NCBI RefSeq assembly: GCF_003950295.1
Contig: NZ_RHNP01000030.1
Span: forward strand, 1 to 37,499
Origin: Loigolactobacillus iwatensis
GTDB taxonomy: Bacteria; Bacillota; Bacilli; Lactobacillales; Lactobacillaceae
DNA: 37,499 bases
Direction of reading: 5' to 3'
The position numbers and the translations under genes were made by a program. Below the pieces are notes generated by a model, which saw only the letters and a program-made list of their open reading frames with translations, searched no databases and was not told the origin of the DNA. Shown here one piece after another: positions 2,578-21,873 of the stretch; position 1 is the stretch's first letter, and each line of letters begins with the position of its first letter.

Positions 2578-2944
2578 GGGAGTGGGATAAAAGTCGGATT
2601 TTTGATTTACTACGTAACGTAAGCTAATCCAATAACCAGATGATAGTTATTGAAATAGCAGTAGTCGTGTTTGAAAAAGCAACTTCTTGTGCTTGTCATG
2701 TTTCAACTTGGCGTCTTTCGCTATAGTTGAATGGACAATGTTTGAAGCATCAGGGTTAGCGTACTTGACTGCGATTCAGCCTTCGGTCCATTTTAGTCCG
2801 ATCGACATCGGCAGTAATGTTCGGAGCCTGGGCACTTTTACAAACACTTCCGTAGTTAGGTACGTGAACCCAGACTTTTAGCGTATGTTCTAGAATAATA
2901 TTCGGAAATAGTAAGTGGCTGGGACTCTTGTTCGGGCCACTTTT
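2578..2944 (+). repeat. Family A dispersed element, interrupted by a family B element
   Basis: The left end GGGAGTGGGATAAAAGTC and the central GTAACGTAAGCTAATCCAATAACC match copies at 29.4 kb, 32.8 kb and (inverted) 6.3 kb. The right end (2857-2944) contains ACCCAGACTTTTAGCG and a hairpin, AAGTGGCTGGGAC...GGGCCACTT, whose arm sequence differs from the other copies but still pairs. Bases 2666-2851 are a foreign insert. Confidence 0.8.
2666..2851. mobile_element. Family B MITE-like insertion (186 bp) with GTAGT duplication
   Basis: The ends are CGTGTTTGAAAAAG on the left and CTTTTACAAACACTTCC on the right, imperfect inverted repeats. GTAGT occurs immediately outside both ends (2661-2665 and 2852-2856) and once in the uninterrupted family A copy at 29.5 kb. 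The interior (ATGTTTCAACTTGGCG, TAGTTGAATGGACAA, TAGTCCGATCGACATCG) recurs in the composite repeat at 15.06-15.68 kb. There is no transposase. A 64-codon frame across it is not thought to be a gene. Confidence 0.8.
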
Positions 2945-15054: not shown

Positions 15055-15676
15055 AGGAGTGTTGGGAAAATATGTTGCTAGTCGTTTCTTGGCCAAATTT
15101 GTGGAAACGTGTTGGGAAAGGCAGCTTCCTGCGGTTGCCATGTTTCAACTTGGCGGTTTTTGCCTTGCTAGTTCTTGCGGTGACCAAGACGAATTAAGTC
15201 GAGGAAACACAGTTATGGACTTTATAACTGTGTTTCCTTGTTTTTGCCACAAGAATAGACAACATTCGTAGCATCAAAAGTTATTTGCGATCTTTGCAAA
15301 TAACGCACTGTAATTGCGAAGTAGTAGTTGAATGGACAACGGATGGCGCATCAAGATTATTAGCGAGTTGTGCTAATAATCCTCAATTGCGGAATAGTAG
15401 CTACAATCGCCAAATAATTCATTGCATGAATTATTCGTCAATTTAGGCTGCGATTCGGACTTGGGTTCATCTTAGTCCGATCGACATCGTTAGTAATGCT
15501 CAATTTAAAGCAGGATTGGAAAGTGCTTTTTCTTGTCCTTCTCTAACCAATTTATGGAAACGTGTTGGGAAAGGCAGCTTCCTGTGCTTAGCTACAATCG
15601 CCAAATAATTCATTGCATGAATTATTCGTCAATTTAGGCTAATGCTCGGAAGCTAAACGCCTTTCCCAACACTCTC
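15055..15676. mobile_element. Composite family B repeat element (about 620 bp), no transposase
   Basis: The ends GGAGTGTTGGGAAAA (from 15057) and TTTCCCAACACTC (to 15674) are inverted repeats. Inside, GTGTTGGGAAAGGCAGCTTC occurs twice (about 15111 and 15562), GCTACAATCGCCAAATAATT twice (about 15400 and 15591), and there is a perfect 14-bp hairpin (15203-15216 with 15224-15237). Segments match the 186-bp element at 2666-2851 (ATGTTTCAACTTGGCG, TAGTTGAATGGACAA, TAGTCCGATCGACATCG). The longest frame, 70 codons, crosses repeat modules and is not credible. The element ends 4 bp before the -35 of the T-box promoter and fills most of the gene-free space 14962-15680. Confidence 0.7.
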
Positions 15677-19343: not shown

Positions 19344-20708
19344 TTATTTTTGTTCGTCCTGCTCATTTTCAACAGGTTCTGGTATTACCGGCTGTATTTT
19401 AACCTCAAACCAATTAATATAGGCATTTTCCATGTCGGCAACCTTTAAGGAAAACTGATCGATTTGAACAATATCATTCAAATGAATACTAGGATTATCC
19501 TTCATGACGAAACCAGTTAAAGTGACGACGTCTGAGGCATCAAAACTTTTGATTTTAACATTGAAGTAACGCTCAAAATCGTAAAGTGTAATTTTACCAT
19601 TAACCCGATAGGTATCATCAGCCTGTTTTAGCACATATTCTTCAGAAGGTTTTTCATTTTCATCCTTAACAGTTCCGAAAAGCTCTTCATAAATATCACG
19701 ATCAGTGACAATACCACTGGTACCACCGTATTCATCAACCACGACGACAATCGGCGTTTGTTTTTGGACCATTTGTGCCAGCACGGTTTGTAATGATGCC
19801 GTTTCTGGAACGGTAATAATATTGCGAAGCATTTTACTGACGTGAATTGAAGCATCACTTTCGGCCTGCTTAATTAAGTCATAATTATAAACGTAGCCTA
19901 AAATATTGTCTTTATCATTGTGTTCAACGACTGGAAAACGGCTGAAGCCTTCCTTGACGTAAAGATCAATCACTTCAGCAACGGTTGCTGTAACATCAAC
20001 CACAATCAAGGAAGTACGATCAATCATGATATCCTTAGCGACTTTATCGTTCATTTCAAAGGCACGTTCCATATAAATGTAGTCATTTCGTTCCAATTGA
20101 CCACCGGAAACTGCATTTTTAGATAATTTTAGAATTTCGGCCTGTGAGTAGTTAGCATTTTCTTCATCTGCTGGTTGTAAACCGATTAATTTAACAACGC
20201 CAGTTGAAGAAGTATTTAGTAGCCAAACAAACGGATAGAAAAGAATATGAAAATAATGTAACGGTGTTGTGACAAACATCATTGCCTGCATTGGCATATC
20301 AATCGAGATATTTTTTGGAACAATCTCGGTAAAGACAACTTCCAAATAGGTTAGAACTAGTACACCAAGAATTGCGCCAACAATGTGCAAAACGGCCGGG
20401 CTCAATAAATGATCAAGATTGAATAGATCAATTAAAATGGACTCCACAGTTGATTCACCAATCCAACCTAAAATAATTCCAGCGACACTAACCCCAACTT
20501 GAGTAGTCGATAGATATTCATTTAATTTGTGTACCATTTCTAAAGCGGTACTGATCTTACGTGACTTACCCCCACGTTTTTCTAATTCTTCCTCTAAAGC
20601 ACTAGGTCGAACCTGAACTAAGGCAAATTCACAGGCAACGAAGAAAGCCGCAAAGAGAAAGGTGATTAACATAATCAGTAGGTTAATAGCGATTTGACTA
20701 CTTGCCAC
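19344..20708 (-). CDS. CNNM/CorC (HlyC/TlyC-type) membrane protein with CBS pair
   Basis: The domain order is an N-terminal DUF21/CNNM membrane domain (about 1-190; AAFFVACEFALVQVRPSALE, ISTTQVGVSVAGIILGWIGE-like core, EIVPKNIS), a CBS pair (about 205-330; MIDRTSLIVVDVTATVAEVI and VVVVDEYGGTSGIVTDRDIYEELFG), and a C-terminal CorC_HlyC domain. Called hemolysin-like in annotation, the family is better linked to Mg2+ or other divalent cation transport. A GTG at 20726 opens the frame, but GTG 20708 has TGGGGA 6 nt upstream and is preferred (454 aa); this is not certain. It is monocistronic. Confidence 0.9.
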   Translation of the reverse strand: MASSQIAINLLIMLITFLFAAFFVACEFALVQVRPSALEEELEKRGGKSRKISTALEMVHKLNEYLSTTQVGVSVAGIILGWIGESTVESILIDLFNLDHLLSPAVLHIVGAILGVLVLTYLEVVFTEIVPKNISIDMPMQAMMFVTTPLHYFHILFYPFVWLLNTSSTGVVKLIGLQPADEENANYSQAEILKLSKNAVSGGQLERNDYIYMERAFEMNDKVAKDIMIDRTSLIVVDVTATVAEVIDLYVKEGFSRFPVVEHNDKDNILGYVYNYDLIKQAESDASIHVSKMLRNIITVPETASLQTVLAQMVQKQTPIVVVVDEYGGTSGIVTDRDIYEELFGTVKDENEKPSEEYVLKQADDTYRVNGKITLYDFERYFNVKIKSFDASDVVTLTGFVMKDNPSIHLNDIVQIDQFSLKVADMENAYINWFEVKIQPVIPEPVENEQDEQK

Positions 20709-20726
20709 AATTATTCCCCATTTCAC

Positions 20727-20922
20727 TCGATAATTAGTCTATTTTAACATGTTTAACTTTAAGAAGCCTAAAATAATTAAATTTATACTTATAGTTATTT
20801 AATTATTAAGGCATACTCAAAAAGGCAAATTTAACCGGCACTTAATATATAATGTTTAACGATTACTTAAATCGGCCTTCAGACCGTTTTTATTCACTAT
20901 CGCTGTGCTAATATATAGAAAA
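20727..20922. other. Gene-free spacer upstream of the tandem array
   Basis: It is AT-rich and should contain the CNNM promoter (minus strand) and the array/cvpA promoter (plus strand). CCTTCAGACCGTTTTTATT gives no stable hairpin. No ORF is seen. Confidence 0.4.
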
Positions 20923-20956
20923 GATTTTATGCTTACATGAAATATGGACATTAATA

Positions 20957-21037
20957 ATGAAGAGGAGCCATGTTTCGAGTGCACGGTTTTCGTGCAAGGA
21001 GAATGGACATCCAATGAAAATGAGATTTTTACGTTAA
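20957..21037 (+). other. Possible 26-codon leader ORF, array copy 1
   Basis: ATG 20957 to TAA 21035 would encode MKRSHVSSARFSCKENGHP followed by MKMRFLR. The same start context in copy 3 is in frame with cvpA (MKRSRPTMLL). Overlapping frames (15 codons from 20970; 7 codons from 21014 after AAGGAG) also exist. Translation is unproven; no Shine-Dalgarno precedes 20957. Confidence 0.25.
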
Positions 21038-21057
21038 CGTAAAAATAGACATTAATA

Positions 21058-21138
21058 ATGAAGAGGAGCCATGTTTCGAGTGCACGATTTTCGTGCAAGG
21101 AGAATGGACATCCAATGAAAATAAGATTTTTACGTTAA
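21058..21138 (+). other. Possible 26-codon leader ORF, array copy 2
   Basis: This is the copy-2 counterpart of 20957-21037, with one residue changed (MKIRFLR at the end). Preservation of the frame may merely reflect recent duplication. Confidence 0.25.
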
Positions 21139-21179
21139 CGTAAAAATAGACATTAATAATGAAGAGGAGCCGGCCCACC

Positions 21180-21737
21180 ATGCTATTAACTATTATTATC
21201 GTTGTGCTTTTAGGTTTCGCAATCTATCGTGGCTTGCATCGCGGCCTAATTGTTGAATTATTATATTCACTAGGCTATATTGCCGTTTTTATCTTTGCCC
21301 GAATGACTTACCAACCTGTTGGGGCAGCATTAGCCAATCTAACCGGAACAACGACTGCTAATTTTGGACTTGCAAATTCAATTGCTTTTTTGTTACTTAC
21401 TGCAATTGGCTGGATGCTAATTCACTTTATTGCTAGATTATCACGTTACATTACCTTTTTACCAGTTATCCATCAGGCCAACGGTTTGGCCGGTGGCGTT
21501 GTTGGTTTCGTGATTACTTACCTGATGGTTTTTGTGGTTCTTTGTATTGGCGCGCTGTTACCAGTGCAGACATTTCAAAATCAACTGCAGGAGTCAACCG
21601 TTGCGCAGACTATTTTGACCAAAACCCCCGTTCTAACCAGCAATCTATTGCAACGGTATTTAGGCCATACGAATTCTAATTCTGATACTTCAAACAAAAC
21701 GACCAACGATCAAACAACTAACCAGACATCGATATAA
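21180..21737 (+). CDS. CvpA-family membrane protein (185 aa)
   Basis: Four membrane helices match the CvpA/colicin V production family: LLTIIIVVLLGFAIYRGLHRG, LIVELLYSLGYIAVFIFA, SIAFLLLTAIGWMLIHFIA and GLAGGVVGFVITYLMVFVVL, with the conserved GLxRG and NxxxGxxxG-type elements. A Ser/Thr/Asn-rich tail follows. ATG 21180 lies 10 nt after GAGGAG; the in-frame ATG 21159 lies upstream of that site, inside the repeat, and lacks its own. In many lactobacilli cvpA precedes mutS2; here it does not. The short GC-rich CCGGCCCACC just before the ATG marks where the third repeat copy is broken. Confidence 0.88.
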   Translation: MLLTIIIVVLLGFAIYRGLHRGLIVELLYSLGYIAVFIFARMTYQPVGAALANLTGTTTANFGLANSIAFLLLTAIGWMLIHFIARLSRYITFLPVIHQANGLAGGVVGFVITYLMVFVVLCIGALLPVQTFQNQLQESTVAQTILTKTPVLTSNLLQRYLGHTNSNSDTSNKTTNDQTTNQTSI

Positions 21738-21741
21738 ATAA

Positions 21742-21798
21742 TGGGATAAAGTAACTAGTTGAGGGAAACTTGACTATATTACTTTGGCCCATTTTTTT
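21742..21798 (+). terminator. cvpA terminator
   Basis: TGGG and AAAGTAA pair with TTACTTT and CCCA (21742-21754 with 21779-21791), followed by seven T. Confidence 0.7.
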
Positions 21799-21873
21799 AA
21801 TTAAAAGTAAAAAAAGTGGGCCAATTCTGCTATGATGTACTTAATTGGGAAATGGAAAGGTTAGTTATCGCTT

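Follow-up and report, generated by a model that had tools for sequence, protein, structure and literature searches.

Tandem repeats at the ribosome-binding site of cvpA in Loigolactobacillus iwatensis belong to a dispersed family of structured intergenic modules

The cvpA gene of Loigolactobacillus iwatensis is preceded by a tandem array of a 101-bp unit, the last copy of which runs into the start of the gene. Such an array could be a regulatory device belonging to cvpA, or a local representative of something that occurs elsewhere in the genome. The stretch of DNA analysed (37 499 nt, hereafter the window) and the genomes of related bacteria were used to decide between these possibilities.

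Anatomy of the array in front of cvpA

Tandem Repeats Finder detected a single tandem array in the window, at positions 20940-21171 (period 101, 2.3 copies, 96% matches), and a covariance model of the unit found two matches within it. The two full units and broken third copy of the original prediction are thus real. The elements of the region are as follows:

20919-20969, forward strand: decayed partial copy, the 5'-most one (hairpin II remnant 20924-20943, spacer and Shine-Dalgarno [SD] sequence), from direct repeat family D2 and the fold
20960-21054, forward strand: unit 1, from a covariance-model match of 90.9 bits and folds
21061-21155, forward strand: unit 2, with the anatomy of unit 1, from a covariance-model match of 92.8 bits and the fold
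21126-21171, forward strand: third, partial copy (hairpin II, spacer and SD GAGGAG 21164-21169), from repeat finding, palindromes and the cvpA start
21180-21737, forward strand: cvpA (Colicin_V, PF02674) from its likely start, 16 nt from the first base of the SD; Pfam match on the ORF 21159-21737, E 7.6e-25

The layout is X(UX)n, in which X stands for hairpin II, spacer and SD, and U for the remainder of the module: a decayed first X is followed by two full units and by a last X that ends in GAGGAG. Each unit runs from an SD through a bulged hairpin I (CCATG..GAATGG) and an A/T-rich hairpin II to a spacer and the next SD, and the stretch that follows hairpin I is predicted to pair back onto part of the SD. 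The SD, hairpin I (CCATG..ATGG) and hairpin II occupy positions 20962-20967, 20968-21006 and 21025-21046 in unit 1, and 21063-21068, 21069-21107 and 21126-21147 in unit 2; in both, hairpin II is a perfect 22-nt palindrome. The predicted fold stretches hairpin I of unit 1 to 20964-21012, with part of the SD paired with UCC, and unit 2, folded as a single whole unit, reached -25.8 kcal/mol (z -4.55). The diverged upstream hairpin, held from the start to have kept its pairing by means of one wobble, did so between 20924 and 20943 (-4.5 kcal/mol, z -3.42, one G-U pair). The larger hairpin I of every unit had been left undescribed. Unit 1 contains a mini-ORF at 20970-21017 (MFRVHGFRARRMDIQ). The ORF beginning MKRSHVSS does occur in this array, but its frame hangs on the spacer of this particular array, ATGAAG, and the other spacers inspected are different.

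As had been proposed, the third copy gives cvpA its ribosome-binding site, the SD of the gene being the GAGGAG at 21164-21169. The spacing from this SD favours the ATG at 21180 (185 aa) as the likely start of cvpA over the in-frame ATG at 21159 given in the ORF list, which falls on the ATGAAG of the repeat. Further upstream (about 20866-20900, and in loci L135-L141), an AAATCGG(T/C)C motif 5' of cvpA was visible by eye in all eight genomes of the genus.

Distribution of the module

For the covariance model, 32 arrays contributed a single unit each, unit 2 of the cvpA array being one of these sequences. Two of 70 pattern matches were dropped before seeding (a mosaic copy at window position 2695 and a chance match), and six of 38 rows were left out as orthologues of others. 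At E<=0.01 the model had 95 matches in the genome of L. iwatensis, the weakest of them near that limit; BLAST with the array as the query returned 23 rows there, including the query itself and two palindrome self-matches, and found matches in four of seven congeners. With the model, the module, which is about 97-108 bp long, was found in all eight Loigolactobacillus genomes (20 to 146 matches each at E<=0.01, among no more than 150 scored candidates in any one genome). Over the arrays examined, which were selected on model score or on resemblance to the query, the number n of tandem units spans 0 to 7. The array was also present in a separate assembly, that of L. backii, so it is not unique to one assembly. 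The same assembly, together with the presence of the family in a single-contig congener genome, argues against copies that would collapse on resequencing.

Larger samples were searched with stricter filters, so that the counts are lower bounds. The module was found in at least 18 of 301 Lactobacillaceae genomes, representing at least five of 40 genera; in a sample of 395 genomes of the order, matches were confined to L. iwatensis, genome G079 and, marginally, a single genome from outside the family. In a phylum sample of 398 genomes L. iwatensis itself was matched and none of the 397 others. A scan of GTDB contigs for the exact pattern yielded 10 stretches, nine in Loigolactobacillus backii JCM 18665 and the tenth, probably a chance match, in a Porphyromonadaceae MAG. 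The array had no match in the plasmid and phage collections. Known RNA families were rejected as candidates: Rfam 15 gave no match in the window at the gathering score, a relaxed search of the array gave a best E of 2.6 with scores far under gathering, and the arrays of nine further loci had no match either in the relaxed search. No earlier description of the family was found in the literature searched, subscription papers aside.

Location of the arrays at ribosome-binding sites

The cvpA array is one of 16 arrays of its subfamily in L. iwatensis (two of them, split over contig ends, were each counted once). All 16 lie in sense to the next gene, the SD of which is inside the repeat, and in all 16 the gene starts 19-24 nt past the model match; at their end these leader arrays carry GAGGAG or AGGAGG, not GTAG. 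Several arrays lie close behind a gene on the same strand. The draft contigs C3/C4 and C5/C6 break inside arrays. According to Pfam, the genes downstream encode UvrB, CamS, RrnaAD (rRNA adenine dimethylase), DAK2, acyltransferase, PFL-like, HAD hydrolase, ABC transporter, GHMP kinase, aminotransferase III, glycosyltransferase, MFS and CvpA types, while three short proteins had no Pfam match; the 16 genes share no pathway or function. The gene names thrB, argD, ksgA and dhaL used below were assigned from Pfam matches or the translated sequence, and guaB, phd and efp are names that we presume from the translated sequence alone.

A similar arrangement was found in the congener genome G005, sampled in 20 regions of top-scoring matches. 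Past the module, 21 of the 22 sampled arrays had an SD core and an ORF (>=60 aa) starting <=40 nt from the module end, the exception running into another degenerate unit. The SD core lay <=3 nt from the module end in 18 of the 22, and 20 of the 22 modules ended in GTAG.

Structure and covariation

The original prediction saw selection on structure in the hairpins, and a covariance check on 18 arrays, each represented by a single unit, bore this out. Standard pairs made up 95.3% of the pair cells (shuffles, 90.2 +/- 0.7); slid registers of the same alignment gave 34-58% (at most 57.6%), a comparison that favours the real register because the structure was read from the same 18 sequences. Changes on both sides of a pair occurred in 25 cells (shuffles, 8.2 +/- 2.2) and involved seven of 20 pairs (shuffles, 4.7 +/- 1.1), a value reached by 17 of 500 shuffles. 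The number of further pair types was no better than that of the shuffles in these arrays (16 versus 14.7; 123/500). In the inner stem of hairpin I, all five pairs showed both-side changes over the 18 arrays of this subfamily; between arrays, the hairpins vary by compensatory substitution. Taken together, these alignments support the idea that selection acts on the structure of the module.

Hairpin I is an imperfect, bulged palindrome with a modal length of 38-39 nt. Its bulged core is invariant over 32 arrays, and carries quite different stems in other congeners. Overall, it folds better in sense than in antisense (68 lower, 42 higher, P = 0.024), with opposite means in genomes G006, G005, G004, G002 and G003. 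Across the subfamilies there were 58 G-U cells and 11 A-C cells once sequences that departed from the modal length had been left out (1/31, 6/42, 4/31 and 0/12), although 28 of the 58 came from one near-constant pair and the two were equal by number of pair sites. The alignment of 18 arrays had 11 varying G-U cells versus three A-C cells, the latter count covering the itemised pairs only. As between RNA and single-stranded DNA as the form under selection, these comparisons showed no consistent preference. In many single units the SD was predicted to pair with a UCC/CCUCC stretch after hairpin I.

Mosaic and composite copies

A second population of modules in L. iwatensis, 33 of 34 rows, lies inside larger mosaic repeats; most of these modules end in GTAG. 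Two of these copies are in the window:

2688-2785, forward strand: diverged module in a mosaic intergenic repeat, a weak match (covariance model 24.3 bits, E 6e-4)
15220-15310, forward strand: diverged module in a mosaic intergenic repeat (covariance model 32.5 bits)

With six of 33 rows left out as second copies at the same places, 27 mosaic copies were examined: the next gene was in sense in 14, in antisense in 12 and missing in one, and so there was no orientation bias. The nearest sense start was >=111 nt away, starts having been picked wrongly or not at all for some rows. In three pairs of mosaic repeats the module was either wholly present or wholly absent, with no duplication beyond about 3 nt at the module. 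Genome G229 bears an antisense module inside another unit, and locus L071 of G079 contains, at 1255-2185, five BIME-like composite units of 197 bp with one module in each orientation. At three loci (L062:1305-1593, L065:1281-1494 and L068:1563-1707), units were seen by eye to be split by other small inserts; the splits fall at comparable points within the unit, following GAATG or GAATGGCCA, and the insert of L062 has the inverted ends CCACTAGC..GCTAGTGG.

Changes in unit number between species

Units at cvpA were found only in L. iwatensis and L. backii, two in each; the model search of eight regions detected none in the six other congeners. Most aligned regions of the two species are about 88-94% identical. 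Their unit number agrees (L. iwatensis/L. backii) at cvpA (2/2), uvrB (2/2), dhaL (2/2), argD-like (1/1), HAD (1/1), L022 (1/1), L024 (1/1) and the phd-like array (in a 99.7% identical region), and differs at thrB (2/1), ksgA (2/1), MFS (3/1), glycosyltransferase (3/5), camS (>=3, at a contig end/2), hisB (0/1) and Asp23 (0/1), that is, at seven of 15 comparable loci. The L021/L083 locus was left out of the 15 (a contig break in L. iwatensis, seven units in L. backii), and no convincing counterpart was found there for the sequences flanking the ABC-transporter and acyltransferase arrays. The hisB and Asp23 leaders of L. iwatensis, in which the model search found no unit, keep a single X. Since this is what a deletion between two X repeats would leave, the zero alleles look like deletions rather than new insertions.

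Within the arrays of L. iwatensis the units are 86% identical (16 pairs), versus 71% between arrays (390 pairs). In all five mixed arrays the first unit is the variant form, which hints at directional growth of the array. Two further observations concern exchange between the species. At the MFS array (L016:2834-3133, compared with L054 and L122; 3 versus 1 units) identity between the two species rises abruptly, from about 92% on one side to about 100% on the other, which is a recombination breakpoint. Several regions among L021, L023, L024, L083 and L086 are 98.5-99.8% identical to the L. backii loci, and this is likely the result of recent exchange.

Comparison with known repeat families

The BOX elements of Streptococcus pneumoniae are interspersed and modular repeats that are structured when transcribed; their boxB module is absent or present in several copies, they can form part of transcribed operon leaders and influence expression, and repeats insert into one another (PMC3049150). 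The likeness, one of description and not of sequence, lies in a variable tandem module within an interspersed structured repeat. Unlike the present modules, BOX has boxA and boxC ends, and supply of an SD is unreported in the passages of PMC3049150 consulted, whereas the modules described here end in or abut the SD of a gene, in sense in 16/16 L. iwatensis arrays and 21/22 sampled G005 arrays. The enterobacterial repeats RU-1, RU-2 and RU-3 (127, 168 and 103 bp), described as MITE-like in PMC2759123, resemble the module, by description only, as small mobile intergenic repeats of similar length.

According to PMC3733652, GTAG repeats occur in Proteobacteria, Cyanobacteria, Chloroflexi and the PVC group, and REPs are mostly located downstream of coding regions and associated with RAYT transposases. 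Part of the present family resembles these REPs and BIMEs in its GTAG end beside an imperfect palindrome, and in its high copy number, tandem clusters and composites (PMC3733652, PMC2817692). The GTAG tetranucleotide was found in 20/22 sampled G005 arrays and most mosaic copies, whereas the 16 leader arrays of L. iwatensis, the subfamily of the window, have GAGGAG or AGGAGG; moreover, the modules are found in Lactobacillaceae and upstream of genes, and no RAYT was tied to them. The palindrome is shared, but RAYT association and downstream placement were not found, so the module is not filed as a REP. Nor is it filed as a MITE: by inspection of the ends, there were no terminal inverted repeats, and no target-site duplication longer than about 3 nt in the three mosaic pairs.

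Explanations for the array

Among its options, the original prediction offered an attenuator or leader-peptide device. As a device specific to cvpA this was not supported, given 16 downstream genes of no common function, a mini-ORF not kept between subfamilies, and a sole terminator-like site (consensus scan of 20700-21800) at 21227, inside cvpA rather than in its leader. The cvpA array is a member of a dispersed family, not a cvpA device. More generally, a short peptide encoded by each unit might, when translated, control downstream expression; 28 of 41 distinct type-A units do have a 17-codon ORF behind the SD, but its residues vary along with the hairpin stem, type-C units stop after 9-10 codons in 36/37 cases, type-D units after 4-5 codons in 11/16 and type B from five upwards. 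In the invariant ATG, A and T are already explained by the CCAT-ATGG pairing, although the unpaired G is not. The leader peptide was accordingly rejected, and we regard attenuation of this kind as very improbable. Chance tandem duplication and slippage, without any dispersed element, would agree with changes by whole units and with contigs that end inside arrays, but a plain minisatellite as the sole explanation is refuted by the many separate loci, and the other genera, that carry homologous units, and deserves almost no credence.

A tandem cis-regulatory RNA is a more serious candidate. The leader element would be the binding site of a shared protein, small RNA or ligand, or would relay ribosomes from SD to SD, the complement in unit n pairing with SD n or n+1, and copy number would tune translation. 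The strict sense orientation and fusion with the SD, the covariation over 18 arrays, the invariant bulged core over 32 and the SD-UCC/CCUCC pairing predicted in many single units are as this model would have them. Against it stand target genes of no common function, six congeners without units at cvpA, unit numbers that vary between 0 and 5 when comparable loci of the sister species are set side by side, and poor SD pairing in the predicted folds of G005-type units. SD masking as a switch drew no clear support: mean predicted openness was 0.28 for inner SDs (26, some overlapping ones counted twice) versus 0.38 for gene SDs (14), with no clear difference (P = 0.08). On balance, a dedicated cis-regulatory RNA seems unlikely, although a regulatory role of the module, such as protein binding or mRNA-level dosage control, is possible. 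That the module is a genuine REP/BIME of the GTAG type, mobilised by a RAYT-type tyrosine (Y1) transposase, appears more doubtful still. The GTAG ends beside a bulged palindrome in 20/22 sampled G005 modules and most mosaic copies of L. iwatensis, and the composite inverted units of G079, speak for it; but PF01797, the only transposase domain searched, was detected in two of the eight genus genomes (G003 and G006), where the surrounding 3-kb loci contained no unit, while G005, L. iwatensis, L. backii and G004, with >=68 module matches each, have none. The GAGGAG end of the window array and the position of leader arrays upstream of genes also argue against this origin.

The array in front of cvpA is probably the locally expanded form of a small, structured repeat with the look of a mobile element, which came to the cvpA ribosome-binding site, in sense, before the split from L. 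backii. The best reading of the repeat itself is a mobile REP/BOX-like kind found at SD sites, which in this lineage has become the SD. The module would have spread by transposition, and recombination or slippage between copies of X would make arrays longer or shorter. Its placement would come from targeting purine-rich SD sites or from surviving at them, and the module may be tolerated there because an SD is left or supplied. Transcribed units would at most modulate leader stability or translation initiation to a modest degree and would not be a dedicated switch. This reading draws on the size and spread of the family, the placement of the leader arrays as against the mosaic copies, the units at cvpA in only two species, the differences at hisB and Asp23, the presence or absence of whole modules, the nested antisense module of G229 and the higher identity within arrays than between them. 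Set against it, no transposase was tied to the family in the search for PF01797, the mosaic differences could come from gene conversion between copies, the hisB and Asp23 zero alleles resemble deletion between X repeats rather than insertion, and the 16/16 sense placement would also be expected of a functional leader element.

A bolder version, which we hold only tentatively and think rather unlikely, is that of a mobile element that homes on SDs and brings its own: a change of its end from GTAG to GGAGG would have made it a portable ribosome-binding site replacing the initiation regions of many genes, concerted evolution would spread one ribosome-binding site through each array, and copy number would act as a translation dial through a chain of SDs and SD complements.

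In L. iwatensis, then, a single interspersed repeat gives 16 genes their ribosome-binding site. The family provides a natural series for studying the ways in which translation initiation is rewired by the insertion of repeats and by their copy number, and a test case for whether a mobile element can target SD sites.
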